DNA from: Cavenderia fasciculata
Taxonomy: Eukaryota; Evosea; Eumycetozoa; Acytosteliales; Cavenderiaceae
Direction of reading: 5' to 3'
DNA: 64,000 nucleotides
Assembly: GCF_000203815.1 (NCBI RefSeq)
Contig: NW_004457735.1
Span: 558,001 to 622,000 of the forward strand
In this document: positions 21,001-57,407 of the stretch, piece by piece
How positions within the stretch are numbered: the stretch's first letter is position 1
Layout: every line of letters starts with the position of its first letter
Notes under the pieces: model-generated
What the model saw: only the letters and a program-made list of their open reading frames with translations
Told to the model about the DNA's origin: nothing
Databases searched by the model: none
Translations under genes and position numbers: made by a program

Positions 21001-24000
21001 TCCAACCTCTGGAGGAGCAGTAAACTCTAGCACTGGTGGTACAAACCTTACTTATACTCAGAGTGATCATTCTAATTTGTCATCATCAACAGCTTCAGGA
21101 GTATCTACTGTCTCGTCAATGATGGAGCCGTCTCAACTTACCGCGTCATCGTTATTAGTGTCATCCAATGAAGTGGGATTGGTTGCTCAACTCACTCCCA
21201 TTCAGTCACCTGAAGGAGCATCGAATCTACAACACACTATTCTCAACTACTTTATGTATTTGTTCCATGAGAACCCACAGTTCCAACAAGAGTGGTATGC
21301 AACTGGTATGATTGAGTATTTAATAAGTATTCTCTTCCCCAATGATCATATTCACCTTCCAAACGTGTCTATGAACACATTGCACGAATCGTCGACTATC
21401 CGCGACCAACAACCACCCCAACAACACGCCACCAACACTGCCATTGTCAAGAGAGACCGTGTGTTGGATTTGGTGTTGAAGTTCCTCTGCCAGATTGTAC
21501 TGAGTGCGTTGAGAAAGTCGCACAAGGCAATCACCATTACCGAGTATGTGTTGGATGGCGTGCCATTATCGGTGCCCGATGACGAGTACCTGACCTACCA
21601 CACACACATCCTCGCCGACTTGCTCTACACCTTGGAGACCAACATTACAAAGTCGGAATTCTTTGACAGCGAGCGTATCCATAGTACTCTAGTCAAGTTT
21701 ACTGCCATGCTAGTGGATCGTCTACATGTAGATGTGTTTAGACCATCGCTTCAGCGTCGTGTCCTATTGTTCCTCGTCAAGATGCTTGAGAAGCTGGAAG
21801 CAGACCGTCCCGGACTCAAGCATGTATCGCCACTCTACCGCCAGCTGAACCGTGTCATTTTACTGATTGTCAACAACGCCCATTCCGAGCAACAAGAGTT
21901 TATCTACCTCGTCGGACATATACTCAATCATCAACGTATCGTCTTTTCAGAGAACAACAGCGATACCGAGTTCTTTGCATCGTTGTGTTTCCCACTGTTC
22001 AAGTTGTCGGTGGTACAACCACATATGGAGTCGATGAATATTGGCCAAGACGTGTCTGACACGGCAGCCAAGTTATTCAAGTTGCTCATGTCTACACGTA
22101 TCCCAAGCGAGGCGATCAACCCACTACTCGTGTACCGTCCATCCGGCAGTACCAAGACTGAGCTGGCCGACCTCCGTCCCGGCTTTGAACTCTTGGCACG
22201 CGGTAGTATCCAAGGCGACTTTAAACCATGGATTCAAGAGAACTTGCTTATCGTCAACATGGTGTTTGAGGAAGGTCCTAAACGTGCACATCAGACACAT
22301 TTGGCAGCCGAGCGAAAGAATGCTGCCGAGACATTACAGTCGATCAAGTTGCGTCGCAAGGACCGTATTGCACGCAATGAAAAGACCGAGCGCAAGACAA
22401 CTGCCCACGACGAAGAGCGTGTTGGACACACCACCAAAAAGATCCAATACTTTGTGCGAAGTGAAGCAGAGCGTAAGAAAAAGATCAAGAGTCTCGAGGT
22501 TGACAAGCAGCGTTTCAACGCCAAGCAATTTGAACAGATTCGCGAGCAAGTCACTAGAGAACGTGCCGTGTGGGGTCCCGCCGCCCCATCAACACTCGAC
22601 AAGTGGAAACTCGACTCGACCGAGGGTCCATACCGTATGCGTAAAAAGACTGAAAAGAACTATGACTTTTACAAAAACTATCCATACGTCCCACCTTCGT
22701 TTGACGAGCTTGGTGGCAACAATCTGCTTCCACTACCATCCAGCGGTGACAGTGAAGCGTTTATAAAGTCACTCTCGGAAAACAGTGATGTTGCCAATAG
22801 TTTGGAACCTGCATACTGGAAATTTACAAGTACTACCGATGGTTCAACTATTGGTGGTAATTATATTAATGAACAACAGTCAAATAATAATAATAATAAT
22901 AGTAACAATAATAATAATAATAATAATAATAATGTAAACTCGACGACTGCAGTAACTGGATCAACTGCATCTTCATCAACGACTGGGAATAGAGTTAGAT
23001 CATCTTCAATGACAGTTAGTACAACAACAGCCAAGATATCTACACCTGTCAAGGCAATGGACGATAATAGTAGTACGGGTGGCAGTCCATCGATTTTGAA
23101 TCGATCTTCATCGACTGATATTACACCACCTGCATCTCCTTTACATTCGTCTGCCGAGGATTCAATGTCAGTGTTACAAGTACATGACCAATCGATGGAT
23201 CAGTCAATGGATCAATCGATGGATCAATCAATGGATCAATCAGATTTGAACAACAACAACAATGGCAATAGTAACAACTCGACATCAATCTTTTCGTTGA
23301 ATGAAGAAAAAGAGTCATCGTCAACTGGTGTATCAACACCGATTATGCAAGGTTTAAAGACATCGAATGAAATCGATGAAGATTCACCTGCAGTTGACGA
23401 GAATGAAGAACGTGGCGAAGAAGAGAATCATGCGTATACACGTCTCCTCGATCCATACGACCAGAGCTATCTCAGGGAGGAAATGCGTCGCAACTATCGT
23501 TTGACAACTGTCATTTACAATTGTGGTAGTGTCGATGGTATGGACAAGACCGAAGGTATCTTGATGTTTTGTCCAATCAACATGTACATTTTTGACGGCT
23601 ACCAAAAGGATGACAACTCTGGTGACATCTCTGAAGTTGAAGAAAAGATTAATACTGACTGGTTGACAGAAGGACAGGTTGTACAAAAGAAGATGGTCTC
23701 TCACAATTGCCTCAAATGGGGGTACGAAGAAGTACGTGAGGTTCTCAAACGTCGTTATCTCTTGCGTCCCGTTGCCATCGAGTTGTTCTCGACCGATGGT
23801 CGTAACACACTGATCACGTTCAAGGACGAAACCACTCGTGACGAAGTGTACAGCAAGATCATCACCAACGTATCCAACAACTCGATTGGTGACATTTCAG
23901 GTATTTCGGGTGGACAGACTGGTGTTGAAGAAGAGTATGGTCGCGACGTGGGTGTCAAGGAAAAGTTCACTTCCATGTGGAGAAAATCACCGCTCACACT

Positions 24001-25952
24001 CAAGTGGCAACAAGGACAGATCTCCAACTTCCAGTACTTGATGCATCTCAACACATTGGCCGGACGTTCATACAATGATTTGACACAATACCCAGTGTTC
24101 CCATGGATTCTCAAGGACTTTACCAGCGAAGAGTTGGATTTGGACGACTCGAGTGTGTACCGTGACTTGTCGCGTCCAATGGGTGCGTTGGAAGAGACAC
24201 GTGCACAAAAGTTCCGCGACCGTTTCGAGAATTGGGACGACAATGAACCCAACGAGCACGGTCACCGCGTACCCAAGTTCCATTACGGTACGCATTACTC
24301 GTCGGCTGCTATTGTGTTGTATTATCTCATCCGTCTAGAACCATTCACACAACACTTCCTCAAGTTGCAGGGTGGACGTTGGGACCAGCCCGACCGTCTG
24401 TTTAGCTCGGTCTCAGAGACTTGGGTAAGCTCGTCGTGTGGAAGTACCGGCTCGATCATGGAGTTGATCCCCGAGTTTTACTACTTGCCCGAGTTTTTAG
24501 AGAACTCGAATAAATTCAATTTCGGAGAGAAGCAGGGTGGCGAAGCTATCAGCGACGTCGTGCTACCACCATGGGCCAAGGGTTCAGCGCAAGAATTTAT
24601 CCGTCTGCATAGACGTGCGCTCGAGTCTGACTATGTGTCGGAACATTTGCACGAGTGGATCGACCTTATCTTTGGTTACAAGCAACAAGGCAAGCCTGCC
24701 GAGGACGCGCTCAACGTCTACTACTACCTGACGTACGAAGGAGCGGTCAATATTGACGCCATCACCGACCCGGTTGAAAAAGCCGCCACGATTGCACAAA
24801 TCAACAACTTTGGACAGACTCCCAAGCAGCTGTTTGACAAGCCACACCCCAAGAGAAATGCAGCACTCAGCTCGTTCCCCTTTTACGCCAAGTCACTCGC
24901 CGGCAACTTTATCAAGGATATTAACGAGCCAGTCGGCCAGATGCGACTCATCAACGACCGTTGCACCGCCGTACCGTTCAACAAGCACCTTTTAGCACCG
25001 TCCTTTACAAAATACATTTTATGGGGTCTGCCAGACGGCTCCATCCGTTACCACAACGGTGACAAGATGAAAGCACTCGAAGATCACCACGATGGCCCGC
25101 TCACTGTCCTCACTTCAACCGATGACGGACTGATTTGTGTCAGTGGTGGTGTCGACTCGATGGTCTGTGTATTTAACTTGAAGCGATTCTCACTTACCAA
25201 GCGTCTCTGTGGCCACACGGGTATCGTCACTGCCTTGGCTGCATCACGTCCCTACTCTGTGATTGTGTCGGGTTCAGAAGACCACACTGCCATCATTTGG
25301 GATCTCAACCGCATGCGTTATGTGCGTACACTTCAAGGACACGACGGCGCCATCTCATGTATTGCCGTCCACGACACCACTGGTGACATTGTCACTTGTT
25401 CGGGCACCACCATCAATGTCTACACGATCAATGGTGAAATGCTACTTACACTCAAGACATCACAAATCATCTATGACCAAATCACCACTTGCTATTGGTC
25501 TAAAGGTGCCGAATGGCTTGGCGAGAATGTACTCATCACAGGTCATCGCGATGGAAAAATCAAGGTTTGGGGTTTGGAGAGCCGTCTCCTTCCCTCCATC
25601 GACAGTGAACCACTCTCAACTCTTGTCTTTAAAAATGTATTAATACTTCGTTCAACTTTTTATAATCTTCAATCTCATAATACTGCAATCACTTCAATTT
25701 ATTTAACAAAGTAAGTCAAAAATAGAAATAGAAATAGAAATAATAATTCATGTTATTAACCGTTTTTGTTATCTTTTTGATTATAGTGACCAACAAAAAT
25801 TATATACAGGTGATATTGAAGGTAAAATTTGTTTATGGTCAGACTCTGATTCATCACAAATTAAACAACGTGGTTGGACTTTAAATCCGACAGATTTAAG
25901 AACAATGTTACCAACAAATGTTGGAACAGGAACTAAACATGGATTATTCTAA
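15001..25952 (+). CDS. lvsA: LvsA/WDFY3-type BEACH-WD40 protein
   Basis: Six exons (15001-15999, 16078-16426, 16498-16706, 16795-17216, 17284-25710, 25787-25952) encode 3523 residues, close to human WDFY3. After a Gln/Ser/Pro-rich start come armadillo-like helices, a concanavalin-like lectin fold near 1010-1180 (SMLFWLYIERG, RWYHIGIVHARR), Ser/Asn-rich linkers, and a block STLDKWKLDSTEGPYRMRKK that is strongly WDFY3-like. A PH-BEACH domain lies at about 2720-2880, a BEACH domain at about 2890-3170 (FQYLMHLNTLAGRSYNDLTQ, THYSSA, LPPWAKGSAQEFI, HLHEWIDLIFGYKQ), and C-terminal WD40 repeats (SGSEDHTAIIWDLNR). No FYVE finger follows. In Dictyostelium LvsA acts in cytokinesis and contractile-vacuole membrane traffic. 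Orthology is inferred from the WDFY3-like blocks. Confidence 0.85.
22880..22934 (+). repeat. AAT microsatellite (poly-Asn) within the BEACH gene
   Basis: Near-pure AAT repeats encode a poly-Asn run interrupted by a Ser. It lies in the linker before the PH-BEACH domain. Confidence 0.9.
23186..23242 (+). repeat. 12-nt minisatellite (Ser-Met-Asp-Gln)n in the BEACH gene
   Basis: About four tandem copies of TCGATGGATCAA-type units encode SMDQ repeats. The frame is preserved because the unit is a multiple of three. Confidence 0.9.
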
Positions 25953-38919: not shown

Positions 38920-39349
38920 TTATTCATCGTCATCGATTTCTTGATCAGAGGAGGGACTATCTTCATCCATTATTGAATCAGAATTATCGGTCAAAAAATC
39001 ATCAGTATCATCTTCATCTGTCAAATCATCTGGTTGATCGCAATAGGTGTAAATGGGAGAAGATTTACTGATGGTGGGTAGATAAGAGTTATTTTTGTTT
39101 TTGAAATTGATGTACAACTTTGCATTGTCTGCAATGTTGACCACTCCACCAAACAATGATTGACTCTGTCCAAGATTAAAACATGATCGTTATCCAATTT
39201 TCTGATGGTTCCTCTAAATACCCCATCACCATAACAATAGATATCAAACTCTTCCACATTACCATGAACAAATTGACCAATTTCAACACTAAATGGATGA
39301 CGATTTTGATAACTATTAGATATTTTGATATTAATTGATTTTGGTAAAA

Positions 39350-39416
<67 letters not shown>

Positions 39417-41054
39417 TGTTGTTGTATTATTTTGATTATTTTGATTATTTTGATTATTAATGATTGTAATATTTGAAGGAATAGTAAAAACAGAGTAGAG
39501 TCTAGTTGATTCTGTTGATGGACCAGACCGAATAGGTTCACAGTGAATAGATAGTGATTCGATTGAAGATGGTATTGTCAAATCGTTTGGGAAACTAGTT
39601 CTTAATTGGCTATAGTCTAAAGACTTTAAACTAGGTGGAAATAGTTTTGGAAGGGTTGGTACACGTATGATGGAACTGCATTCAAATGATTCTAGTTGAT
39701 TTGGAAACACTGTGAACTCATTAAATACACAAGCATATCGGAATAGAGTGAGAGCTTTAACCGAATTTGGGATGAATTGGGGATTGATCAGTCCAGTGTA
39801 GTTGTCTAAATCCAATGTATGAACAGACTCTGGTATGGCACCCTCTGACAATTTTCCATCACGACTGAATCTGATTTCCAATTCCTTGACATTCATCGGA
39901 ATGAACCCTGGTGGCAACAATCTCGAGCATTGACGAAGCGAGAGGTTGGTTATATTCGAGGGTAGTGCATTTGGCTCGATACGAGTAAAGCGTTGGAGAC
40001 TCATATCGAGTGCCGTGAGAGAGGTTGGGAGGAATGTCTTGGGAATATCGGTTGGCAAGTCGAACGATAGATCTTTTAGCGTTGAAGGCAAGATAAAGTC
40101 GGTGGTGGCGATATCGGGATGTGGAGTGGCAAATATATAGAGTTGGTCGAGCGATACAAGGTTGTCAAGACGTAGAGTGTAGGAAGAGGTTTGAGAGATA
40201 TTGACTCTAAGTGTTTTTAATGTTGTTGGGAAGAGGTGGAGGTCTGTAGGAACACGAGTAATAGATATTGTCAAAGAGGTGAGTGAAGAAGGTGTTGATA
40301 GTATGTTGCACAAGACTGATCCTTCCATTTTACCATAGATTTGCAACTTTGATAACAAAGGAAGGGATACTAGAGCGTTTGCATTGGCAAATACAAAGTT
40401 TGCAGGTTCAAAGATAACAGTCTCCAAAGAGGGTGGTAACGACCCCTTTGCAATCTTGTCTGGGTATCCATACCGAAGATACTTGAGAGTATGAGGTAAA
40501 TACCCATTTCCAATTTGACTATTACTTTTCGTTACATCCAATTCTTCGAGTAGAGGTGGTAGATGTAGTGGAAGATCGGCTCCTTCAGGTACATACAATG
40601 TTGTAGTTGTATTTGGTAAAAGGGTCTCTTTATCACCACCATAATTCTTTCCTGCTGGATATCCTATTAATGCAATCTTTACATCAATTAAAGAAGAAGT
40701 AGATGAAGTAGATGATGAAGAGGATGAAGATGAGGAGGATGAAGGTAAAATAACTAGTTGATTTGATATAGATCGATCAAATAAAGATTTAAATGGTTTC
40801 AAGTTGAATGTTGAGGATACCAGATGATGATGAACAAGAGTATTGTAGTACAACTCTGAAGCCTCATCGATATAATGAATATCTCTAAACTGAAGCAGAC
40901 TTGTGAAATCATTTTTGAAAGCATAGTAATACTTTTTGCAAGTGATCAACAAACAGATGAGATCTACATTATCACGAATATCTTCAATGATCTTTAACAG
41001 TAGTATATTTGATATACCTCCATATATAAAATAACATTTGTCATTAATGTCCAT
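38920..41054 (-). CDS. FNIP/LRR-like repeat protein with poly-Asn and acidic tail
   Basis: ATG at 41054 (the open frame upstream offers only TTG). Residues 1-60 (NILLLKIIEDIRDNVDLICL) are F-box-like. About fifteen repeats of roughly 22 residues follow, with the IP.S...L.L pattern seen in FNIP-type and LRR families (GFIPMNVKELEIRF, GAIPESVHTLDLDNY, QFIPNSVKALTLF). A long poly-Asn run then occurs. The first frame ends at 39021, but codon choice and a typical Asp/Glu-rich tail (DLTDEDDTDDFLTDNSDS) continue in the next frame to 38920. One missing T in the run at 39178-39181 would join them (about 711 residues). Sequence error or a recent lesion are both possible. Confidence 0.7.
39350..39417 (-). 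repeat. ATT microsatellite (poly-Asn) in the FNIP-like gene
   Basis: About 20 ATT units read as AAT on the coding strand and encode a poly-Asn run. Confidence 0.9.
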
Positions 41055-43674
41055 CGATATTGATCGTGATTGTCGTAGTCTTTGCAAACGAAAGAAATCG
41101 AAAAAAAAAATGAATATTTATTTTCTTTGGGGGTTTTGAAAATTTTTGGTCTTCTTTATTTTTAATTATTCTTTTACCAATCGATAGATCTTTTCTTTAT
41201 CAATCAAATGGTTGATAAAAAAATTTGCGAGAGGTTCACCCTGCTAAAAAGTACTTTCCGTAAAGTCGCCTTTAGCCATGGGCTAACATGAGGTCTAGAA
41301 AGCATTGTTTGGAAAAACAAATGATATAAACAGAAAGAGCACAAAAAGTTGTATCTATTGGTGATATTGGATCGTCGTTTCAAAGATTATTCAAATAAAA
41401 AAAATGCTATTCTTCAAAGACTATCTCATAGTACTATTGTGCGGGCCAACCATATAAAACTATATGCTACATGGATCGATACCTTTTGGATCACGATTAA
41501 TCAAATAAAAAGACAAGCACCAACACAAGAGGTGTAGGTGCCTTGAATCTTCAACATTATATGCACTGGTGTCGGCAGTGTTCAATGCATGCCACATCCA
41601 GCAACGCTAGACAAGATGGTTAGTATATTTGGAATGGATCAATAATCAAATAATTCAGAAGTGGTCAATCTCAAAACAATTGTGAATGCTCAAGAGTATT
41701 GGTAGCTTAATCTCATATATCGATATCATGGTTATTTATTTGGTACATACTAGTATTATTGTAATTGGCTCTTTTAAAACCCATCAAGGCTAGTGGTCAC
41801 ATGACAATTTCGCATTCGATCTATCAAAACCATCCATTCTAAAAGATAATAAATAAGTAATAATTAGTAAACAGTATTTATGACAGTAATTTTACAAGAT
41901 ACATATCTTTACAGTTTTTAAAAATGGACCAACTCGTCTCTAATCAATTGATTCTATATTTAAAGTATAATATATATGGCATGAATATGATTAGTTGAGG
42001 GTTTGATAGTTGTATTGTGATGAATTTACTTAACTTTGTATTCTAATTCAGGTGGGTAGAGTTGATGACCAAACAACCACCTTTGTTGCTATAATACAAG
42101 ACTACCAGCTATAGTATGAACCGATTTGTTGACTAGTCTCATTAAACAGATATCTGATAGATTGGAATTGTTAGTTTAGTTTTGAAATTAATTTATGTTA
42201 TGAATACATAACTTTAATAGATCGGCGGTTGATTAAGAAGAAGATCAATCGGTTCTAAAAATAGTAAGGATGACCTATGTTAAAAATATGTATTAGTAAT
42301 TGAGTGGTGGTTGTAGTATATATACTACTACTATGTTGAAGTCTACATGATACTTAAACTTTATCATTTATGGATAGGTACCATATATGGATGGATGTAT
42401 TGTTTGATTAAATATTGAACTATAAAGCTGTAAGGGATAAATAAAAAGAGGAAAAGAAATATGAGTAGAATCAATAGAGCTACCATTACTCTTGTCTCAA
42501 TCACAATGTTTCTCATTCTAAAAAAAAACACCAACAATATATAGATAATAAAATATTAGTATCCAGACCCAAGCCTGGAGCTGCAAGCAAATGCCCATTG
42601 TGAACCAAATGACAAGTTGAACTCCGTTGGCTATACCGTAGAGTAGTCCTTTTGAGTCAAATGAACAATGTACTTGCAGCTCCCAATTCTGAAATGATTT
42701 AAAATAGGGGAAAATTGTATATATATAGAGGGGGGGGGAAAGAGGGATAGAGGGTAGAATTCATAAGTTTCCCACGCCGAAGCATGACCATTTGGAAGAC
42801 ACTAGAACATCCTCCCACCAACCAAAAGGAGTTGTAGTGTCTTTTTAAATAATAATAATAATATAACCACAAGTGTAATCTATAATTATAAAAAAGAGGT
42901 TTATTTCTATTGTCTTTAAACAATAGAATAATGGTTAGTGATGTATAATATTTCATAGTAGTGTATAGTCTTACTTTAATTTATATTATATATTTATAAA
43001 AGATTTTGGTTCTTTGTCAAAGGATCCTTGAATAAAGACAGAGTGATTGTTGGTCTACGTCATGTCCTCTAAAGGCGTCATTCCCATTGTTGATTGACTG
43101 ATTGATGATTGTTTAAAATATCTTGATGAATCTAATCGATCGATGGTTATTGTTGTTGGTGTCATGATGAAAATTCTCCCTCCAAAATTAATTACTTCTC
43201 TTCATGACATGATAGTGCTGTGCTGTACTGTGTTCTCGCGCAGTACAAGACAAGTAGTAAATATAAATACATCTAGATTTATGAATTCATAACCCATCCT
43301 AAAGTTGAATTCATTCATTCATTCATTCGAGACAGACATCCATCAAATGACGATGATGATTGAGATTTAATTTAACTTGTTACCCTATACTACTTGTGTT
43401 GATGATCAATATTCACATCATCATCATCAACATGATCATCATCATGACTTTTATATCTCTAAGTATTGTATTGTAATTGTATTGTTCTTATTCTTATGAC
43501 TCTGTGATGATCATGATGTTTGTTGGCGTTTGTGAATGCTCCATTTGCAAATTTGAACCCAAAATCTCTTAGTTGCTTACTAGTATGAAAAGGTGACACT
43601 GATGATAATATTCTTTTGAAGAAAGGAATTAGTATACATCAACAACTACTACTAGTTAATTTCTTATATGCAAC
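41055..43674. other. Gene-poor intergenic region
   Basis: About 2.6 kb with no supported gene. Open frames are short, and only one (41349-41537, about 60 codons, no ATG) looks even mildly protein-like. An 11-bp perfect inverted repeat lies at 42577-42587 and 42673-42683. TTCA/ATTC tracts (43310-43330) and ATC-rich tracts (43410-43450) are present. Confidence 0.6.
42577..42683. repeat. Inverted repeat, candidate hairpin or MITE-like unit
   Basis: GGAGCTGCAAG at 42577-42587 is perfectly complementary to CTTGCAGCTCC at 42673-42683. Further in, CATTGT and (A/T)TGAC segments recur in both arms, so pairing may extend imperfectly. No target-site duplication is obvious. Confidence 0.4.
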
Positions 43675-44178
43675 TTATTGTGTAGAATTATTATAATAAT
43701 TCTTTTTTCCATCTTTTGCTTCCTTGTGCATCTTTCTAATGATGTTGATACAACTAAAATCTCTTGGTGACATAAAAACTGTACCATCTTCGTTGATCTT
43801 TTCTCCTTTGGGGTCGAGAGTTGTCTTGATACCTCTTCCATGTTTAGACATGCTCAAACTTCTTAGAACCTCTGCTTGTAGTACTTCGTCGCCATTTGTA
43901 TGTCTTCTCAACAGGAATGACGTTTTATTTCTAATGCGTTGCACTTGTCTTAATGAGAATGTTGGTTTAAAACGGTCGCCAATTAATCGTTGGTAGACTG
44001 TTGGAGGTGTCGTTGTTGTTGTTGTTGCTGCTGCTGGTGATGCAGAGATTGTTGTTATTGGTACTAATGCTACTGATACTGATGATGCTGCTGATGCAGT
44101 GATAGTTTGGGCTGCTGTACTCATGATTAATATGCTTAAAATAAAGATAAAAATATATCTATAATATTGATAATTCAT
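43675..44178 (-). CDS. Small secreted-type protein of unknown function
   Basis: Single exon of 167 residues. It begins with a hydrophobic stretch (YYRYIFIFILSILIMSTAAQ) that could be a signal peptide or anchor. An Ala/Ser/Thr-rich segment follows, then a basic domain (FSLRQVQRIRNKTSFLLRRH, LSMSKHGRGIKTTLDPKGEK) and a Lys-rich end. No known family was recognised. Codon use is less biased than in non-coding frames and the ATG is clear, but there is no second line of support. Confidence 0.5.
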   Translation of the reverse strand: MNYQYYRYIFIFILSILIMSTAAQTITASAASSVSVALVPITTISASPAAATTTTTTPPTVYQRLIGDRFKPTFSLRQVQRIRNKTSFLLRRHTNGDEVLQAEVLRSLSMSKHGRGIKTTLDPKGEKINEDGTVFMSPRDFSCINIIRKMHKEAKDGKKNYYNNSTQ

Positions 44179-45085
44179 TAAATAAAGATATTATCAATTT
44201 AATTAAATAATTAATTGTTTGTTTCAATTGATTCTACACTTTTTTTTTTTTTTTTTTTTAAATTTTTTTTTCTCATGAGATAGTGCGATCTTTATGCGTG
44301 CCATAGGTGACTGACCTGATACATTTGCGAGGTTTGAACATTTGTTTCAAAACAACAACAGCAAATAGCCCCTCTCTCTCATTAATAAATGGATCCTATC
44401 AAAAAGAAGAAACAACAATAGAATCATACGCTGATTTGGTATCATACACCCCCCCTCTCCCTCCTCCTCTTCTCTTACATTTTAGATCTTGGTTCATATA
44501 ATGAGCCTAATCCGCACCCCCATCCCCCTCCTTATCCGCCTCACTCATATAGTGAATCAACACGCCCATAATCTGACGGGTTACATCAAAGAATGATCGT
44601 GCTGTGGCTCACCTAGGCATCATATCCAACCATGACTACCACCCCCTATCCTCCTCCTTATCCCCCTCACTCATATAGTGAATCAACACGCCCATAATCT
44701 GACGGGTTACATCAAAGAATGATCGTGCTGCTGTGGCTCACCTAGGCATCATGAATGCCCCCATTAAACGGTGGTGATGACACAGTTCGGGTATTAAGAA
44801 ACCACCATACGATTATGATATCATTGGGACAACCCCATCTGTATATGTATCACCCCTCACTTTTTGTTGATAATCAACAAAGACAAGAAAACATTTGTTT
44901 AAAATAAAATATTATTCATCAAGCTCCAATGTTCTCTATTTAAAGTGTTCTTTTTCTCATCACATCATTATTCATTTTATCTATCTTTTCTTCAATTCAT
45001 TATCTTTCTGCTATATTGTATTACCTTTATATATTTTTTATATAGGAAGCTTCTAATTGAGGTTCACTATCGCACAGTGGTCATC
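44179..45085. other. Region upstream of the Fanzor gene
   Basis: About 900 bp. It starts with a T-run (44240-44265), then a C-rich stretch with CCCCCT motifs (44430-44530), and holds two long direct repeats (listed separately). The last 200 bp are AT-rich and end with a possible 5'-UTR intron acceptor (ATATAG at 45046). No gene is seen. Confidence 0.6.
44528..44751. repeat. Two tandem direct repeats of about 97 bp, 126-bp period
   Basis: Copy 1 (44528-44624) and copy 2 (44654-44751) are nearly identical from CCTTATCC through the CATCAT at the end. Copy 2 has an extra CTG in the GTGCTG(CTG)TGGCTC part. Each contains an inverted TCACT-CATAT-AGTGA and a GCCCATAA. They lie 330-560 bp upstream of the Fanzor start codon. 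Confidence 0.9.
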
Positions 45086-48000
45086 ATGAATGGCCCACTT
45101 CCATCCGCAACAGAGACAAGAACAACTCAATACCCTCTCGATCGTCTCATGGGTAAGAAGTGGAATAACGAACAAAACTTGTTTGTGACACATCTCGGCC
45201 AATATGCAAGATACTATCACTCTGTTAAGAGGTTAGTAGGCCAATTTTTTTTAATATTTGTATACGACTTTAATAACAGTAAGATATCATCAACCTTTTT
45301 TTTTTTTTTGAACATGAATCATTCAGATAAGTTCATGAACTAATTGATCGATTTCATGTATTTTACTATTTTTAGTGTTTAGTTTGTCCCGACAAGAACT
45401 CGAAAAAGTAATACCAAAGTATTACGACATGAGTGTTCTTTCAAAGAACAAAACAAATGAATTATATGAAAAAATGGAAAATCGGTTGACTTTGCCGATT
45501 CGATGGGATTCTCTAATTGTGGAGGCCATCATCTCAAAGGTGATGGACATAGACACACGCAAAAGCAGTAATAGTCCAAGAGATTATGTATGTATAACAG
45601 TCTGTGACAGTTATGATGTGTAATAATAAATTAATTTTTATTTTATTCTTTGTTTACTCTTTACAGAATTCTGCACAAGATGTCCAAGCAAAAGAGAAAA
45701 TCGTCAACAAAATGCTATCGAGAACATTTGCCAAACTCAAGGTAGACGAGATGGTTGCAAAATATCAAATCCTCCGATATGCACTCCTTGACCCAGATCT
45801 GAATCCAATTGGCTGTTGCCACTCTTATAAAACCGCCTTTGCCAACTCCATTTGCAATAGTTACTCGGCCGAGGTGGCCGAGACCTGCAAAAGGATGGTG
45901 GAGAGTGCTTTAGACCGTCAAGATGACCGAAACATATTCCACCACGAGTCCAAGTTGGTGTCGGATCTTCTGGAGGATATACTTGCCAAAATAGATGATG
46001 GTGAGATCGGTGAAGGGTACCAAGCTCTCAAACTAATATTTTCATCTCAACCATTAAAAGGTATGTCATTGATATTAACACCATCACAGGTTTTTTTTAA
46101 ATATCTTCTTGCGTCGGTTCATGTAACTCTATCTCTCATTTTGTTTATCTTTTGCTCATACACGTCAAAAGGGGTCGATGACCGCTACTGAGAGGATGGT
46201 GGGCAGTTTGCGGAGTGTCGATCAGATTTTTTTTTTTAATATTTATTTTCATTTTTTTTTTTCATCTCGAACAACTCACAGAAACCAAATTTAGAGAATG
46301 TATATTAAACTATTAAATAACATCTCACACTCAACACAACATTATCAATAGATAGAATACAGCGAGTATTGTTTATAGTTACACTTTTAGTGTAAGAACC
46401 CACACATCACTATCATTACTCCTCTTTTACACCATTTCTTTTTGATTATCTTTTGTTTTCATTGGTTTACCAATCAATGCACCACCCATCTCTTTCCTTT
46501 TAACTACTCATTGTTGGCCAAGTTCATCTTTACATATCATTGACCTCTTGTGTTCACTCATAAATTATATAATCCTTTTTGATCCAAATCAAGTACCAAT
46601 CTACCACTCTTTATCGCTCTGCATCCTTTTTGTTGTTCGTTTGATCCACTCTCCTATCCGACAAACTTTCTTTACCACTTAACTTTCCATCAGATACTGC
46701 AATCAATCACTACCATTGCTCCTCTTTTACCCTTTCTTGTTTTGATTATATTTGTTTTTATTAACGAGATGCACCACCCATCTAACCACTCGCCTCATTG
46801 TTGGTCCCAGTCTTTCCATCAGATCGATAATGCAAAACATTACAATCATTGCTTTTACACCATTTCTTTTTTGTTTTCATTATCCAATCAACGCATCACC
46901 TATCTCTTTTGCCTCATTGTGGAGAGAGAGATAGAATTTATAGAGTATAATTGTAATACAGCGCGTATTAATTATTGCAGAGATTAGAGTGATCTTTGAT
47001 ACCTCCATTGATAGCAAGAAGCTCTCTCTATGCAGTGACAGGCCTGTCAAACCTTTTTTTTTTTTTAATTTTAAACCTCTCTAACATTTATTACATTTAT
47101 CATTATAGATCATAATTTGGAATGCGAAAAGAAAAGGTCAAAATTAAAAGAGGAAAGAGAGGCCAAGCAAAATCAAGAGCCAGCCATTCCCAAGGAAAAA
47201 AAAAAGAAGAAACAGTTTTTGGGTGACAAAAGGCCTGAAAACTTTGATGAAATCAATTTTGATGGAACTGTTTATTCAATATCAAATTTGGCCACAGATT
47301 TAGAGATTGATAGCAAAAATGTAAAGAAATTAAAGGTTGAAGAACATATATCTGGTGATTATTTACAATCTGAACTCTCATCAAAGTTGGAAGCGTTGAT
47401 CCAATCATCAACATCAATAAGTGCCTGGAGTGGGTTAAATACCCTCCAATTGAATAGATTGAAAATGCTAAATTTGGAAAATATAATTAATCCGTAACTA
47501 TTATTATTATTATATCTTTTGTTATTTTTTATTATTTTCATTATAATTAACTAATCAAATGCTTTTTTTGTAATCTTATTTTTTTTTCTATAGAGAGGAC
47601 AATTCAATCGATTTTTCAAAGTTGACAAAAGATCAATATCCATCTTTAATGGATTTTTGTGAATCAAATGGATACAAGTTTCCAAAAGGATATGACCCTA
47701 CAGGATTGAAATCCCTCATGACGTCCGATTTGGAGACGATAAAAACTACTCCTTTCGCATTGAATAGCTTTGCACCACAAGCAAAGTATGTATAAAACAA
47801 TTGACCAATATCTTTTTTTTTATATTTTTAAAACTAATCCTCTTTTTTATCTATAGATTCAACAGTACTTTTATCCCATTCTCGATAGAGTTGTTTGTCA
47901 GTATAATCGTCAACTCTGGAATAGATATGTCCCTTGGTTTGACCGACAAACACAAAATATTAAGGTATATTTCAAAAATATTACCTAATTTGGAAAAAGA

Positions 48001-51000
48001 AATTGGTCATCCATTGGAAAGTGGCTATCCATTGGATAGATTTAAGTTTTTCGACAAGGAAATTGAGATCCTCAAAGCTTCGCACTTGGCTTCTTTTCCT
48101 TCATCGTCAGATGTAACAATATCACCATCCTCTTCGTCTGATGTAACAACATCACCATCCTCTTTGTCTGATGTAACAATATCACCATCCTCTTCGTCTG
48201 ATACAACAACATCACCATCCTCTTCGTCTGATACAACTACATCTCCATCCTCATCATCAAAAAAAAAAAGAGGTAGAACTCGTAGTGAGATTGTGGATAT
48301 AAAGTTAGAAAAATTCCCTGATTTTAAAGATTTTAAATTGGAGGATCTTAATCGACAATTGGAACTTAGAGATATCGAATCCCCAAACATTGATACACAA
48401 GTCCAAGAAGAGGAAAATATTAAAAGATTGAAATTGGTTTTATGGCAAGACATGGTAAAACGCTTGCAAATAGATTTTATAGAAGACTTTGACTACAGCA
48501 AATCCAGTCAAGTTAGCATTTTAAAATGGTTATCTTTACCTACTAGCACTATTAAAATCGAATATGATTGGTACTGCTGTTCATTGCCAACACTGAAAGC
48601 AACTCTCAAGAAACTATTCAATGACAGCCCAAAGGTGAAGAGAAATGGGCCAAGGAAATGGATGCCAAAGTCTCTTGCTTCAACAAAAAAATCGTTTCTT
48701 TTTCGTTACTATACGATTGGATTTGTTGGAAAATCAGTCCTCTGCGATTATTTGCAATCACCGTATGTAAAAGACAACCCATTCGATTTCAACGGGTCAA
48801 CAAAAACAATTCACCCCAACTTTAATGATTACGAAAGAGACAATATTGGTTACATTTATAACCAAAAAATGTCGGTCCTAATCAATCAAAGGGCGATGAT
48901 GGTGACAACCAACGTTCCCAGCCATATCTGGTTCCAAACAAAAAGTAAATGTCATTGTTTTAAAGCATTATTATCTTTTACGACCCATTCATTTTACTAA
49001 TATTTAATTTTAATCTTTATATAGGTGCAAATGAAAAAGTAGTTTCTGATGTGCAAATATCCATGAATTGCCGTCTCTTGCCATACCATTTGAAAAAGAG
49101 ACAAAAACTAGAAGAATCTTTTCCAGAGCAAAGTTTGGTCTCTCAAAAAAACGGTCAAGATGGCACACCCATGGATGATTCCGATGATGATGATGATGAA
49201 TCATGGAAATGTAAACAAGTAGAAGAAATGGAAAAGAACCATTCATATTCATACAACCATCCCCACTATGCTTGTTTTGTGGCAAAACAAGTTGGGTTGA
49301 AACCAAACATTCCCAAAGTCAAGGATAGAGATATTATCTGTGCCAATTGTTTGTCATCCCACTCACTTAAAGATTTGCCTATGGTGTGCGAACAATGTGA
49401 TGCGACCATTCCTATTCTATCGGAACATGAAAAAAGATTGGATTTATGTGGTGACCTGATGGATCTGTACTCGGTTGATATTCAACTAAAAAGGAATGCA
49501 TTTGAAAAAATGCCACCCTTTGATTCAAAGGATGATCAATTCCCTCCACCAGTACCATTAATTGCCGAAATCAATCATCGACTCGTCAAATTTGACCAAC
49601 CTGAGTCACCCCACGTGGAGATTTTTCTACACGAGGCTCTCAACACCACCTCGATAGCACTCAACAGTAACAGGTCAGGAATTGCACCCTCCATGCGGAA
49701 CCTATTCAATCTTATTAAAACTACATCCGATCCCTCGATGCAATTTAGAATTCGTGATGCATATCCCTTTGTCCACGACTCGTCTACTGGCGGATTTGAA
49801 AATGAAATCAAACATGAAATCATGGTGAAGGAATTAATGAAGCATTTTTCAATGACAACGTCCAAGCTCATTATTGTTTGTGGACAATTCCCTTGCAAGG
49901 CAGCCAAAGAGGCTTTTAATGCCAATCCTTTGGATTACGAAATGGTTGACTATAGTCAAGAATCTTATCACACCATTTTAGATAAAGCCAAAGGCACAAC
50001 CGAGGACAAAGAGGTGGATGTAAGTAGGATAATTCCTAAAAGGCTCATTGCTATCGCCCCGCATCCATCAGTCATGTTTGCGTTGCACATAACAGCAGCC
50101 TATATTTTGATTGCTCATGATATCTACAAAATGGCTCCAAAGGTATCTCAATTTGACCCAGTTCAAACATTTAAATCGAATTCCCCCTCGTCTGCCTCGT
50201 CCTCCTTCTCCTCCACGTCCTTATCATCCACGTCATCTTCATCATCTGCCTCGTCATCTTCATCATCTGCCTCGTCTTCCTCGTCTGCCTTGTCCCCGTC
50301 CTCCTCGTCCTCCTCCACGTCCTTATCATCCACGTCATCCTCATCATCTGCCTCGTCTTCCTCGTCGTCCTTATCATCCACCTCCTCTTCATCATCCTCC
50401 CCTTCGTCCTCCAATCAAAATACCACCAAACGCCCAAATCTAAGTAACAAAACAAAAGATTTTCCTAAACTTAAACAATGGACGTTGGAACATCTAGTTG
50501 AAGAGGCCACATCCCGTAAAATCGACGTAGAGAATATCAAAGAAGATCGTCTTCAAGTGGAATGTGTTTTGTTGAAATCGGTCCTTGGGGTTCAAATATG
50601 GTCAGAACAAAAAATTGAACAGTTTGATCTAGAGAAATCAAACTCGAAAAAAGATATACTGACCTATGCGAGAGAAAAAAATATCCCTTTGACAGACTAT
50701 TGGTTCTTCATGACGTTGGAAACCCTCAAAAAAGCCGTGCAAAGGTGTCTCGCTTCCACCTCGTCCCCATCTCCGTCCTACTTGCCCACCCCTTCCTCAC
50801 CCTTGACCGATATCTCACTCCCCTCTTCCCCATCCTTGACCGATGCCCCACCCACTTCATCCTCATCCGATACCTCAACTCCACCCTCTTCCACCGATAC
50901 CTCATCCTTGACCGATACCTCAACCACCTCATCCGATACCTCAACTCCACCCTCTTCCACCGATACCTCATCCTTGACCTATACCTCACTCCCCTCACAC

Positions 51001-52899
51001 TCATTCTCCTACTCCTCCTACTCTAAACCTTTTGTAAAAAATGAAAAGTGCGTTTACAAAGATGAAGAGAAACATATAAGAGCAAAGAGAGATTTTTATC
51101 ACTCTGGAATGTGTAGAAGGCGCCGAAGCAAATGGAAAGTTATGAGGGAAAACAACTGTGGCAATTATCTTTATATCGGAATTGATCCTGGAAGGTCAAA
51201 ATGTACGATTGTAGACTCTATGAATCGTGCTCGAGTGGTTTCAGTGGCATCTTATTACAACCTCATGGGCACTGACCGTCTTCTGGCAAGACAACAAAAC
51301 TACAAAAAGAACCCGGTCCTGTCCAAATTTGAAAGTGAATTGCCACCCTATAATACCTTTGGTAAGTGTTATTTTAAATATGCATTGTCTATACCACCTA
51401 TATATTATAATATTAATATTTATAAACTAACTTTTTTTTTAATTCCTAGATACTTTATTCAATGTAGAATCTGTATTGAGACGAATAGAGTATGAAAGAA
51501 TTACCCATAGGGATCAATGTCGTCTTTATTCCCATGTAGTGACGTCCTATACGTTTCAGACCATGGACAAGAACAGGAACATTGACAAGAAGCGCGCCCA
51601 ATATGCCTATGCAAAGAGCTTTGTACCACCAACAACAATCCCGAAAAATAGAATAGTGATTTGTATGTTTTTTTTATTTCTTCAAACCATTTATTATTAT
51701 TTGTTATTAATCTTCTTTCTTTTTATAGATATTGGAGGGTCTGATTTTTTCCGTGGATCCCGAGGTGGTGGTAGAACTGGTTGTACATCAAAGACACTAC
51801 TCAGACTGTTTTTGAATATGGGTTACAAGGCACGTCTTGTCAATGAATTTAATACCTCCAAAGTATGTGTGTTTTAATAATTGAATTTTTAGATCAACCC
51901 TCGAAATGGCCATTCATTAATATTTTTTTTTCCAAGATTCATAATGCATGTGCCTCCAAAATTCATTCTACCAACAACAACAAGTTCCTAGAAAAAGCTA
52001 AACACCAAAAGGTTAAAAATGTGTTGCCAGAATCTTTTGAAAAGACCCATGTTGTTGGTGCACCCATATCCTCCACGTTTTCAGACAATGGTGTTCGTTG
52101 GCAAGGAAAGGATTCCAAGTTATGTGATGGTTGCAAATTGACTGATTACAATTGTCAATGCTCCAAGGCTCAATTGGCGGACAAAGAGAATGATTCAACT
52201 CTGAAAGTGTCTCAATTGGCAGATGATATGAATGAAACTCTAAAAGTATTCATATCACTTGAAAATACTTCACCTTCTCCAACTATGCTATTGGAATCCC
52301 TTTTCTCTTTAAGCAAAAAGACTGTCAAGGAGTTGATAGAGTTTTGCAATCTAAACTCTATCAAATACAATCAACAAGAAGAGCCAACCAAAGGGAAAAA
52401 CAAAAGAGGTTCTCACAAGGATAGTAAGGGTGGTGCTACCAACAGCAAAAAGGACCAACTTATCAACGCTATCATCAAGTTTAATTTTGAAAAACAAAAA
52501 AGGGATGCTAGCAAAAATAAGAAAAAGAGGTCAAAATCGTCATCAACTACTAATGATCGTTGTAAGGACCAAGATCAAAGCAATAGTCAAAAGGATGGGA
52601 ACAAGTCTACAAGCAACTCTGTTTCGACCCACGATTATGGTTTTGGTAAGTCTCTTTGTGATAGTCAGATCAAAGATCTCTGGAAGTCAATGAACCCAAA
52701 TGCGACAGAAATGCCATTTAAAACTAAATGGCAATGGCTATATTGTCCAGTTTGTGATCATTTCTTCAACAGAGACACGAGCGCTGCAAAGAATATTCTC
52801 TTATTGGGAATCTTACACCAAACCGCAGATTACAGGCCATGGATTTATCGTCCTTTACCTGCCGATATCGTGCATATTGGGAGGGTAGACACGACCTAG
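45086..52899 (+). CDS. Fanzor (eukaryotic TnpB-like RNA-guided nuclease) with large multidomain N-terminus
   Basis: Ten exons in consistent phase: 45086-45231, 45383-45587, 45667-46060, 47109-47493, 47594-47785, 47857-48944, 49025-51361, 51450-51662, 51729-51862, 51937-52899; 2018 residues. Fanzor signature: RuvC-I YIGIDPGRSKCTIVDS (D1524); displaced RuvC-II Glu in VNEFNTSK (E1693); zinc-ribbon halves HNAC (1700-1703) and CPVC (1968-1971); RuvC-III NRDTSAAKNILLLG (D1978). Upstream lie a Cys4 finger (C909, C912, C925, C928), a UDG-like segment (about 998-1155) and SAP-like modules near 385, 593, 1285 and 1821. Fanzors are RNA-guided DNA nucleases spread by transposons. Exons 4 onward have no ATG of their own, which supports joining them to exons 1-3. 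The alternative is a separate 254-residue protein ending at 46191. Confidence 0.75.
46061..47108 (+). other. Long intron with internal repeats
   Basis: Intron 3 of the Fanzor gene is 1048 nt, about ten times its neighbours. It holds three degenerate copies of a CTCTTTTAC...TTTCTTTTTG...ATGCACCACCCATCT...CTCATTGTTGG block at about 46412-46512, 46718-46812 and 46848-46922. It also holds two copies of AATACAGCG(A/C)GTATT at about 46355 and 46960. An internal acceptor at 46170-46171 would end the frame at 46191. No ORF of note lies inside. Confidence 0.6.
48103..48258 (+). repeat. 30-nt minisatellite in the Fanzor gene
   Basis: About five tandem 30-nt units (TCTGATGTAACAACATCACC and so on) encode SDVTTSPSSS-type decapeptides, forming a flexible linker. 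Confidence 0.85.
50185..50412 (+). repeat. Ser-coding minisatellite in the Fanzor gene
   Basis: Imperfect CGTC/CATC-rich tandem units (CCTTATCATCCACGTCATC and TCATCATCTGCCTCGTC types) encode about 75 residues of Ser with Ala, Thr and Leu. This separates the UDG-like segment from the next module. Confidence 0.85.
50752..51013 (+). repeat. Ser/Thr/Pro minisatellite before the nuclease core
   Basis: Tandem units built from GATACCTCA and CCCTCTTCCACC motifs include a nearly exact 63-nt duplication (about 50872-50934 and 50935-50997). They encode TSTPPSSTDTSSLTDTS-type sequence that links the N-terminal part to the Fanzor core. Confidence 0.85.
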
Positions 52900-53565
52900 T
52901 TAACCTTAACAGGGCCTTCCTGCATAAATATGAAAGTCCCCCCCTCAGCTGTAAGTTATTAGATAGAAAATATAATGTTGATCTCAATTTACTGATTTTC
53001 CTCTTTTTTTTCTGTTCTTTGTCTTTTTTTTTACTTTGTCTGTTTTTTTTTCTTTCCTCAATTCAAAATAAAAGTTCAAATGTAAACTACACAACACGTT
53101 GCTTTTAAAAAAAGATCTGAATAATAAAATTAATTAATATTTTTAATTTAATATCTTTTAAATAAGATAGGTAGATATATAGATATTATGAATATTAATC
53201 CTTTAGTTTTGAGAATACATTATCATGTATTAGGTCATTGTGAAACTAAATCTGTCATACCACCAATCTTAAGTTTCATTTTCTAAATTACTAGATCTAT
53301 ATGAAGATATAAATATAAGAATATTTATGATTATAAAGTATTTCATCAACTAATTCTGATTGTATTACCGTGGTGTAGAACCGATCCTTTGATCTGAGAG
53401 GATGGAGATATTTTTTTTTGTCCCATGCACGAATTTTGTTCAAGGCAACTCAAAGCAAAGGGCATGGATGGGTATAGTGATCCAAAAAGTTCAACAATTC
53501 AACGCAACAACATTGTCATTCTTCTTCTTTTTCTTTTATTCAACTAAACCAATAATTAACTTACA
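52900..53565. other. Region downstream of the Fanzor stop codon
   Basis: A GTTAACCTTAAC inverted motif overlaps the stop, followed by about 70 bp of mixed composition (CAGGGCCTTCCTGC, GTCCCCCCCTCAGC), then pyrimidine-rich and AT-rich DNA. Fanzor guide RNAs are often encoded next to the nuclease gene, so 52895-52975 is the best place to look here. No guide scaffold can be defined by eye. From about 53390 the sequence is the promoter side of the next gene. Confidence 0.4.
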
Positions 53566-54861: not shown

Positions 54862-57407
54862 TTATTGATAAATGACCTTTGGCTTTTCAGATTTGTTTGA
54901 AGATGATTGGATGGTTCCAATTTGGTAGACAGTTTCGTTGTGGTGTTGGAGGAGGGAGGTGATTTGTTCGACCTTTTCCTTTTCGACAATCAGGACCATA
55001 CCGATACCGCAATTAAAGGTACGGAGGAGTTCGAGACTGTCCATCTTGCCAATTTCATTGAGCCATTGGAAGACGGGGAGGATGTTCCATGAACCAATGT
55101 CAACGTGAGCGTTCATGCCGTCGGGGAGGACACGTGGGAGATTCTCGGTGATACCACCACCAGTGATGTGTGCAAGACCGTTGACACCGCCATTCTTGAT
55201 GGCAGCCAAGCAGGAGAGGACGTAGAGTTTGGTGGGGGTGAGTAGTGTCTCGCCGAGTGTCTTGGTTGGCTCAAAGGGAGCCTTTTGCAGGTAGACCGAG
55301 TTGCTGCTGTCGCCTTCTTTGACGAGCCCGCTCTTCTTCTCTATGAGGTATCGTACCAACGAGTACCCGTTCGAGTGGACACCCGAGCTGGCGAGACCGA
55401 GGAGTATGTTGCCTGGACGGATGTTGCGTGGTAGCATTTGGTCGCGTTCAACGGCACCCACGGCAAACCCAGCCAAGTCGTACTCGCCGTCACGGTACAT
55501 ACCGGGCATCTCGGCCGTCTCACCACCAATCAGTGCGCAACCAGACTCTTTACATCCACGTGCAATACCGCCAATCACCTGTGTAGCAACATCTACATGG
55601 ATACGACCGGTTGCAAAGTAGTCGAGGAAAAAGAGTGGTTCGGCACCTTGAACCAACACATCATTCACACACATTGCAACGAGATCAATACCAATGTCTT
55701 GATGACGGTTAACTTCTTGTGCAATCTTGAGTTTTGTTCCAACACCATCTGTTCCACTGACCAATATTGGATCTTTGAATCCAGCTGCTTTGACATCAAA
55801 CAACGCACCAAAACCACCTAGATCGCTGACACAACCACTTCGGTTGGTGGTCTTGGCCATTGGTGCAATATTGTCGACTACGGCATCACCACGTTCAATA
55901 TCGACTCCACTCTCGCTGTATGATACTCCACTGGTACCTGTCTCGGCACTACGTTTATTGGCCAAGTATGTGATGGCACGGTGTCCAATATCCTTTCTAA
56001 ACTGCATACCCTCAAAAGAGACGGCAGCGACACCTACATAGGCAGCACGGATGGCAGCTTCTAGATCGGCGGCTAGTGCAGTGGTCGATAGCACACGACC
56101 ACCGCTAGTGACGAGACGGCTGGTATGATCGGGTGCTTGGACGACAGTCGTGCCGGCTTGGAAGAGCATGAGACTGTCCGACTGGGGGAACCGCTCGACA
56201 CCGACAATCTCGCGACCTTTGGCGTATGCATCTGGGTATCCCTGAGCAGCCGACACGACCGTCACGGCGTATCCGTCGCGCCACTTGACGTCGACGCTGT
56301 CCAAACGTGTCTCTATGCATGCAGCGAATATCTCGTACAGGTCACTCTCTAGTAATGGCAGTACTACCTGCGTCTCGGGGTCTCCCAGACGACAGTTATA
56401 CTCGAGCACATAATTTTGCTGTGTCACCTTGTCGATGATCAAGCCGGCAAACAACACACCTACAAACGGACGTCCTTCACGTCGCATACCGTTGATGGTT
56501 GGTTTGAGCACAGTCTCGACGATCGCGTCGATACGCGGACCGAATCCCGACGCTGATGCACCTGCTCTACGGTCGGTCACGAATGGTGCGGGCGAGTATG
56601 CACCCATTCCACCGGTATTTGCACCCTTGTCACCGTCGAGTGCACGTTTATGGTCTTGTGCAGGTGGCATGACGGTCACTGTGTACCCGTCCGAGAAGCA
56701 CATCACCGACACCTCATCACCGTCGATAAACTGCTCCACCACCACCTCGTCACCGGCACTGCCAAACTCCTTGTCGACCATCACACGCTTCAACGCAGCA
56801 ATCGCCTCTTTTTTGTCTGCTGGAATGAGCACACCCTTTCCGGCGGCACATCCCGATGCCTTGATGACCACATTATGGCCAACCGACTCGACATAGCCAA
56901 CAGCATCCTCATACTTTGTAAACGACTGGAATGCGGCAGTTGGGATACCGTGACGGTGCATAAACGCCTTGGAGAAGCATTTGGAGCCTTCAATCTCGGC
57001 AGCAGCCCGCGATGGACCAAAGCATGGCACACCCTTTCTCTTCAAATCGTCTGCCAAGCCATCCACCAGCGGTACCTCTGGTCCGACGACCACCATCGAT
57101 GCATTCACCTCTTTACTGAAATTGGCAATTGACTCGGCATTGATCGCTACATTTGGTGCATTATTGATTCTTCCATTTGATGTTGTTATCGATCCATTTC
57201 CAGGTACCATATATATTTTATTTACTTTTTTTGATTTTAATAGTTTCCTAAAAGTATTAAAAAAAAAAGAAAATATAAGAAAAAAGTAAAAGTAAGTATC
57301 AACCTTGATTTGATTGTTCTCGCAACTTGTAGTTATATAACTTTAACATACCATGCAATAGCATGTTCTCTTGATCCTGAACCAATTACTATTATATTAT
57401 CTAACAT
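54862..57407 (-). CDS. purD: Bifunctional GARS-AIRS purine biosynthesis enzyme
   Basis: Two exons (57352-57407, 54862-57247) encode 813 residues. The first short exon supplies [19 protein letters not shown], the Rossmann start of glycinamide ribonucleotide synthetase. It continues with [16 protein letters not shown], the GKGVLI loop and the ATP-grasp region ([20 protein letters not shown]), to about residue 430. The AIR synthetase half (about 450-790) has [21 protein letters not shown], the [12 protein letters not shown] loop, and [16 protein letters not shown]. It catalyses steps 2 and 5 of de novo purine synthesis. The length matches the known dictyostelid GARS-AIRS fusion, which lacks the GART domain found in animals. 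The start was set by the GSGSREHA motif. Confidence 0.95.

Follow-up and report, generated by a model that had tools for sequence, protein, structure and literature searches.

The question raised by this locus is what an exceptionally long gene with a Fanzor nuclease at its end is doing in the genome of a social amoeba, and whether it belongs to the host or to a transposon. The gene lies in a stretch of 64,000 nucleotides from Cavenderia fasciculata (contig NW_004457735.1, positions 558,001 to 622,000 of the forward strand), hereafter called the window, and a preliminary description of this DNA, made from its sequence, had proposed a multidomain protein of 2018 residues encoded by ten exons, functional or domesticated. 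We found that the gene is carried by a young, multi-copy mobile element of the kind reported in 2013 and that its unusual feature is its size, about three times that of the usual Fanzor: Fanzor1 proteins mostly have 600–700 residues (PMC11423790), and some reach about 800 (PMC10711439; these and the other papers are cited here from the accessible portions of their texts). The interpretation that we hold with fair confidence is that the window contains a copy of a Sola2-type element with a very long Fanzor1 gene, that this copy is mobilized in trans, that RNA-guided cutting would contribute to its retention and that the extra modules of the protein would serve in tethering.

A DNA search of the genome that contains the window (31.0 Mb in 21 contigs), with the gene region as query, identified 10 long copies, six over the whole query and four in pieces (the pieces being 97–100% identical), together with further fragments and internally deleted forms; the further copies that the preliminary description had thought worth looking for thus do exist. 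The span that it gave for the gene stood, and the functional unit proved to be larger, being the whole mobile element (Table 1). All 14 right ends that were compared share their end base and the 11 compared left ends share their start place, and the terminal inverted repeats (TIRs) are 13 bp long and imperfect, agreeing at 11 of 13 bases. The flanking 4 bp are AT-rich at both ends: on the left they read AAAT in 21 of 24 cases, ATTT in 2 and AATT in 1, and on the right AAAT in 18 of 19 and ATTT in 1, these counts leaving out the left end of L136, which has a deviating terminus. Paired flanks were read for 11 window-family copies, which include internally deleted ones; AAAT stands on each side of 10 of these, and a sister-family copy (L134) has ATTT at both ends.

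These features correspond to those given by Bao and Jurka (2013; PMC3627910) for three Sola2-type Fanzor1 families, DFa-1 to DFa-3, of Dictyostelium fasciculatum, which have TIRs of 12 or 13 bp, AT-rich 4-bp target-site duplications of the form AWWT, a nearly identical first 2.5–3 kb followed by unrelated Fanzor parts and, in DFa-1 and DFa-3, a mostly deleted transposase. The window element is like them in its Sola2-type ends, in the length of its TIRs, in its duplication, in the joining of a common 5' part to differing Fanzor 3' parts and, as in two of the three families, in the loss of most of its transposase. It matches DFa-1 or DFa-3 by description, not by sequence, and the accessible portions of that text hold no protein length, exon structure, inserted modules or oriented target site. 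In place of a Sola2 transposase gene, the window has a minus-strand frame of 171 codons, and the element is non-autonomous. In a sister element (L131), whose right end is similar to that of the window element, the homologous minus-strand frame adjoins a frame of 411 residues, absent from the window, that we take as the transposase. A minus-strand open frame occupies 39021–41117, and the window copy is situated just upstream of it. Just inside the left end (41147–41150), ~50 bp that are present in the nine other left ends compared are missing from the window and C10 copies, which marks these as a sub-lineage. In L142 (positions 91–495; contig C3) the left and right ends of the element are separated by 405 bp and flanked on each side by AAAT, and this copy is an internally deleted derivative resembling a miniature inverted-repeat transposable element (MITE).

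The exons were rebuilt from the raw sequence of the window at 45086–52899, and all ten join in phase, as had been proposed, into 6057 nt that encode 2018 residues with one terminal stop, all nine introns having GT–AG borders. The long gene is probably real, with its splicing inferred from conservation, because a cousin shares the ten-exon layout and because there is clear purifying selection between the two. Contigs C18 and C4 of the same genome each carry a copy of this diverged cousin element, and the exons of the C18 copy (L044), placed with the window gene as guide, form a gene of ten exons in the same order, encoding 1931 residues with one terminal stop. Intron phases are equal at eight of the nine introns, the first, where the sequence is poorly conserved, being the one that differs, and exons 3, 4, 8 and 9 have identical lengths in the two genes. 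Over 1813 aligned codons the two are 50% identical, with a ratio of nonsynonymous to synonymous differences per site (pN/pS) of 0.50; codon position 3 is more variable than positions 1 and 2 in every one of the ten exons, and pN/pS is below 1 in all 12 segments. The most conserved part is the zinc-ribbon/RuvC-III end (81% identity, pN/pS 0.18), followed in pN/pS by residues 981–1180 (0.36). Silent divergence is near saturation over residues 1–1385 (corrected values of at least 1.8, or beyond correction), whereas the RuvC segment reaches only 0.8, the zinc loop 0.6 and the last segment 1.2. The lower values at RuvC and the zinc loop suggest that families probably exchanged the nuclease end of the gene more recently than its other parts, which fits the chimeric history described in 2013. 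The drop in silent divergence covers window positions 51052–52722.

All ten exons are open in six of the 10 long copies (the window copy, L005, L006, L007, L008, and L012 with L015), and the length changes in exon 7 of these six are multiples of three. The other four are broken. An identical 4-bp gain interrupts exon 3 at one and the same position in L009, L010 and L011, there is a second break in exon 7 of L011, and exons 1–3 are missing from L013. Because three copies share this gain, it seems that a copy broken at its N-terminus has multiplied. When the nine other copies were compared with that of the window, with low-complexity stretches excluded and with L010–L013 taken without their separately fetched 5' pieces, the codon changes comprised 13 distinct synonymous and 40 distinct nonsynonymous ones, so that 24.5% were synonymous where 24.5% were expected. 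Copies of the element thus drift after insertion, and its lineage appears to have been kept functional over longer times, which is the behavior of a transposon gene and not of a domesticated one.

The assignment of the C-terminal part as a Fanzor/TnpB-type nuclease with its key residues, made in the preliminary description, is supported by the motifs IGIDPGRSK (at residue 1521), VNEFNTSK (1691), CPVC (1968) and NRDTSAAKN (1976). Fanzors are distinguished from typical TnpBs by a DPG motif at RuvC-I and by a glutamate that is relocated six residues upstream of the zinc finger (Yoon 2023, PMC10711439). Both are found here: GIDPG is present in the window protein (D1524-P1525-G1526) and in the cousin as well, and E1693 is followed by FNTSKI and then by H1700. 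The putative zinc ribbon consists of HxxC (1700–1703) and CPVC (1968–1971), separated by an insertion of ~240 residues, and the RD dipeptide that Bao and Jurka placed 5–50 residues after the zinc finger occurs in the sequence DHFFNRD that follows CPVC, with five residues between the last zinc cysteine and R1977-D1978. Consistent with this assignment, a nuclease core from which the zinc-ribbon insertion had been removed matched the transposase profile phrog_506 (E 7.6e-5 at best) and the Cas12u1 profile (E 1.9e-4 at best), each with 2 of 2 members, and Cas12f was matched too. The profile searches that had been proposed for this segment gave TnpB and Cas12 matches that are consistent but weak, with PF07282 below its cut-off. 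Two pattern-based scans of IMG/VR, one for the conserved domain and one for the nuclease core, confirmed no relative.

The insertions are oriented, with an A/T tract to the left of AAAT that is absent on the right. Seventeen left ends are of the GAATATTTATTTTC type, including one from a cousin and some from deleted copies. At these, G+C content is 12% (41/340) across the 20 bp to the left of the duplication and 3% (3/102) in the nearest six bp, versus 33% (125/380) in the 20 bp to the right of the duplication at 19 right ends (Fisher p 1.8e-11) and 35% (97/280) at the 14 right ends of the window family alone (p 2.0e-11); as neighboring bases are non-independent, these p values are indicative. 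The remaining seven left ends show a weaker bias (33/140 G+C). The cause of the orientation may be either an asymmetric site read by the transposase or a filtering of the survivors by a target-adjacent motif of the Fanzor.

The preliminary description had also proposed that DNA-binding-like modules are fused in front of the nuclease. The extra modules are there, but their assignment to DNA binding was supported neither by Pfam nor by solved structures. A module of ~115 residues is duplicated: in four comparisons, made both within and between the window and cousin proteins, the similarity of its copies lay 5.5 to 20.8 standard deviations above that of shuffles. Pfam gave no support for a SAP or other DNA-binding assignment of it, and its best solved-structure match, to ribosomal eS25 (E 0.012), is too weak to name it. 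A match to Rho_N in exon 10 had an E of 0.24. Ser-rich stretches also add to the length of 2018 residues. Part of the ~1500 residues before the nuclease is presumably an ordinary REC/WED lobe, since the normal layout of a Fanzor has the RuvC/TNB end at the C-terminus; in a comparison with two other Fanzor families to locate the end of WED, the scores were flat along the protein. By eye, GIAPSMRNLFNLI, IIVCGQFPCKAAK and APHPSVM had suggested a uracil-DNA glycosylase (UNG) in residues 981–1180, and this was not supported: hhalign against 83 UNGs gave a probability of 0.8% and a score of 18.2, which at least 5 of 60 column shuffles exceeded (mean 14.8, maximum 23.3), and a PF03167 scan of the genome found four other genes and not the window Fanzor gene. 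Mean pairwise scores against UNGs were slightly above those of 20 shuffles for both the window (36.9 versus at most 35.5) and the cousin (31.7 versus at most 31.3), and the resemblance is kept only as a lead. Solved-structure searches gave this domain no assignment. A Pfam match of the cousin to carbonic anhydrase (E 5.8e-4, 1 of 2 members) has no counterpart in the window sequence and was therefore judged a short chance motif. A literature search found no paper on this architecture, with many journals and all supplements beyond its reach.

Table 1. Features of the mobile element and its Fanzor gene, in window coordinates
Feature	Coordinates	Strand	Basis
Whole mobile element, 11,966 bp	41112..53077	+	Similarity among copies stops sharply at both ends
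Left target-site duplication AAAT	41108..41111	.	AAAT before GAATATTTATTTTC at 41112
Left TIR GAATATTTATTTT, 11/13 match to right one	41112..41124	+	
Remnant: N-terminal piece of presumed Sola2 transposase gene, remainder missing	43678..44190	-	Homologous L131 frame; PMC3627910 (accessible portions)
Fanzor1 gene, ten exons, 2018 residues	45086..52899	+	Exon joining; cousin gene
Exon 1	45086..45231	+	
Exon 2	45383..45587	+	
Exon 3	45667..46060	+	
Intron 3 (89 bp in cousin), lengthened by nested repetitive DNA	46061..47108	+	
Exon 4	47109..47493	+	
Exon 5	47594..47785	+	
Exon 6	47857..48944	+	
Duplicated module, first copy, residues 576–695	48260..48619	+	Similarity to residues 1269–1380
Exon 7: conserved domain, Ser-rich stretches, second module, RuvC-I	49025..51361	+	
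Conserved domain, residues 981–1180, 62% identical to cousin, pN/pS 0.36	49555..50154	+	
Duplicated module, second copy, residues 1269–1380	50419..50754	+	
RuvC-I IGIDPGRSK, DPG motif, presumed catalytic Asp 1524	51175..51201	+	Definition in PMC10711439 (accessible portions)
Exon 8	51450..51662	+	
Exon 9, carries VNEFNTSK with relocated glutamate E1693	51729..51862	+	
Exon 10: HxxC, zinc-ribbon insertion, CPVC, NRD	51937..52899	+	
~240-residue insertion between zinc-ribbon halves	51991..52722	+	
CPVC...NRDTSAAKN: zinc-ribbon half and RuvC-III (D1978)	52744..52794	+	PF07282, phrog_506, Cas12f/Cas12u1 and UnCas12m4a matches
3' non-coding tail, islands conserved in cousin, candidate guide-RNA region	52900..53077	+	
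Right TIR, reads GAACTTTTATTTT on - strand	53065..53077	-	
Right target-site duplication AAAT	53078..53081	.	

The window protein is like SpuFz1, GtFz1 and PpFz1 in having a C-terminal nuclease with the RuvC aspartate, relocated glutamate, second aspartate and zinc-ribbon signature, but it is much longer (theirs have mostly 600–700 or up to ~800 residues; PMC11423790, PMC10711439) and adds the module duplication, the ~200-residue domain, the ~240-residue zinc-ribbon insertion and HxxC instead of CxxC. PpFz1 is also a Fanzor1 with an extra inserted domain, the FRI insertion domain, which binds a host protein, cyclophilin (PMC11423790); that insertion has ~100 residues and lies inside RuvC, whereas the window protein has several much larger ones. 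Four Fanzors, SpuFz1, GtFz1, NlovFz2 and MmeFz2, cut DNA with guides from the 3' flank and short 5' motifs, and two of the four motifs are A/T-rich (CATA and TTAAN; PMC10432273). The element, the gene frame, the copies and the motifs are what the C. fasciculata sequence shows; RNA guidance, cutting, retention and tethering are inferred, with the Fanzor probably working like other Fanzors, along the following lines. Lacking most of its transposase gene, the window element would probably be moved in trans by sister elements that have similar ends and have kept that gene. The guide RNA would come from the 3' end of the element, with the guide beginning after the AAAT of the right end, and AAAT would be the core of the target-adjacent motif. 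Under this guidance the RuvC active site (D1524, E1693 and D1978) would cut DNA, specifically the empty or excised site, and repair from a remaining copy would restore the element, with the extra modules being insertions that may tether the Fanzor to chromatin or to partner proteins. The Fanzor may be functional. The 3' non-coding region contains islands conserved between the window element and the cousin. No fall in silent-site differences, of the sort that overlap with a guide RNA could produce, appears at the very end of the coding sequence, where pS is 0.59 over the final 54 aligned codons versus 0.41 in the zinc loop.

Several results weigh against this interpretation. For the nuclease, His takes the place of Cys as first zinc ligand in both the window and cousin families, and the spacing from DPG to the glutamate is 166 residues versus 120–160 in the published TnpB-finding pattern. 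The PF07282 profile reached E 5.2e-4 at best (2 of 2 members) at 20.6 bits versus a cut-off of 26.3, and gave E 0.042 on exon 10 alone and E 0.078 in the genome scan; no TnpB model was matched in NCBIfam, and solved structures, searched with single sequences and with untrimmed profiles, gave no relative. The best solved-structure match, UnCas12m4a, aligned at NTSK...CPxC...RDTxAA, is weak (E 0.12) and, like those to phrog and to the Cas12 profiles of padloc, was obtained with the trimmed core. For the guide RNA, folding of 52831–53081 showed no excess stability (z 0.63), and an Rfam scan gave no match at gathering scores. As to the element, no Pfam family was matched by the 411-residue frame of L131, so its Sola2 identity rests on the published description; one of the 11 paired window-family copies (C1) has unlike flanks, AATT on the left and AAAT on the right; and the neutral codon variation of the recent copies indicates no purifying selection among them.

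The alternative that survives best, although we consider it unlikely, is that the nuclease is dead or only binds DNA and that the Sola2 transposase alone moves the element in trans, with the Fanzor as a passenger. This would accord with the neutral variation among recent copies, with the zinc-ribbon histidine and the large insertions, and with the reported dispensability of TnpB for transposition (PMC3627910). It is harder to reconcile with the retention of all motif residues in two families that are near silent saturation over most of the gene, and with the RuvC-III/TNB end being the part most conserved between them.

Somewhat less probable still is that two genes have been wrongly joined, a short one made of exons 1–3 and an independent Fanzor gene that starts with exon 4. 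In its favor, intron 3, at the junction, is 1048 bp long versus 66–151 bp for the remaining introns, and three copies with an identical frame break in exon 3 seem to have multiplied. However, the same junction in the cousin is an 89-bp GT–AG intron in the same phase, and exon 4 has no methionine until well into its length, near residue 366. Intron 3 contains sequence that is repeated elsewhere in the genome, probably nested short repeats. The stretch at 46400–46762 has 47 further listed genome matches at 68–98% identity, many of them clustered, and the intron is arranged differently in four copies (L010–L013).

We regard as about equally doubtful a multi-module targeting Fanzor, in which the inserted domains and the A/T-tract-AAAT site are taken to reflect the nuclease's own target selection; the transposase-less element would then use RNA-guided cutting to select, keep or re-install itself at oriented A/T-AAAT sites, and the domain at residues 981–1180 would act in repair. 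Strongly disfavored is the suggestion in the preliminary description of a domesticated gene, an RNA-guided nuclease serving a host function: purifying selection between the two families over the whole length would suit it, but the gene belongs to a repeated mobile element with 10 long copies, the copies read at their ends sit in the same terminal structure at different sites, variation among these young copies is neutral and four of the 10 are broken.

Apart from the trans-mobilized Sola2-type element that we favor for the window, PF07282 marks other Fanzors in this genome: the profile scan gave 23 places, and at least two Fanzor families are present in addition to those of the window and the cousin (one L131-like, to which L132 belongs, the other represented by L133), along with L134, a cousin-like piece. 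L131 has GIDPN in place of GIDPG and a different, long low-complexity N-terminus, and L133 has GVDPGRR. Elsewhere in the window, a plus-strand open frame of 2829 codons at 17225–25714, mostly of 40–53% G+C, which we take to encode a large protein of the BEACH/WD type, is presumably a host gene, and a minus-strand open frame downstream of the element (54862–57342) is presumably a fused purine-synthesis gene of the GAR synthetase/AIR synthetase type.

Fanzors are eukaryotic RNA-guided nucleases. In C. fasciculata, near-identical open copies and sister families with and without a transposase gene, all with similar ends, are found in one genome, and the sharp, oriented insertion site predicts a target-adjacent motif; these resources make the part of a Fanzor in the persistence of a transposon directly testable. 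The large insertions that this protein tolerates mark natural points at which a Fanzor can accommodate extra domains.

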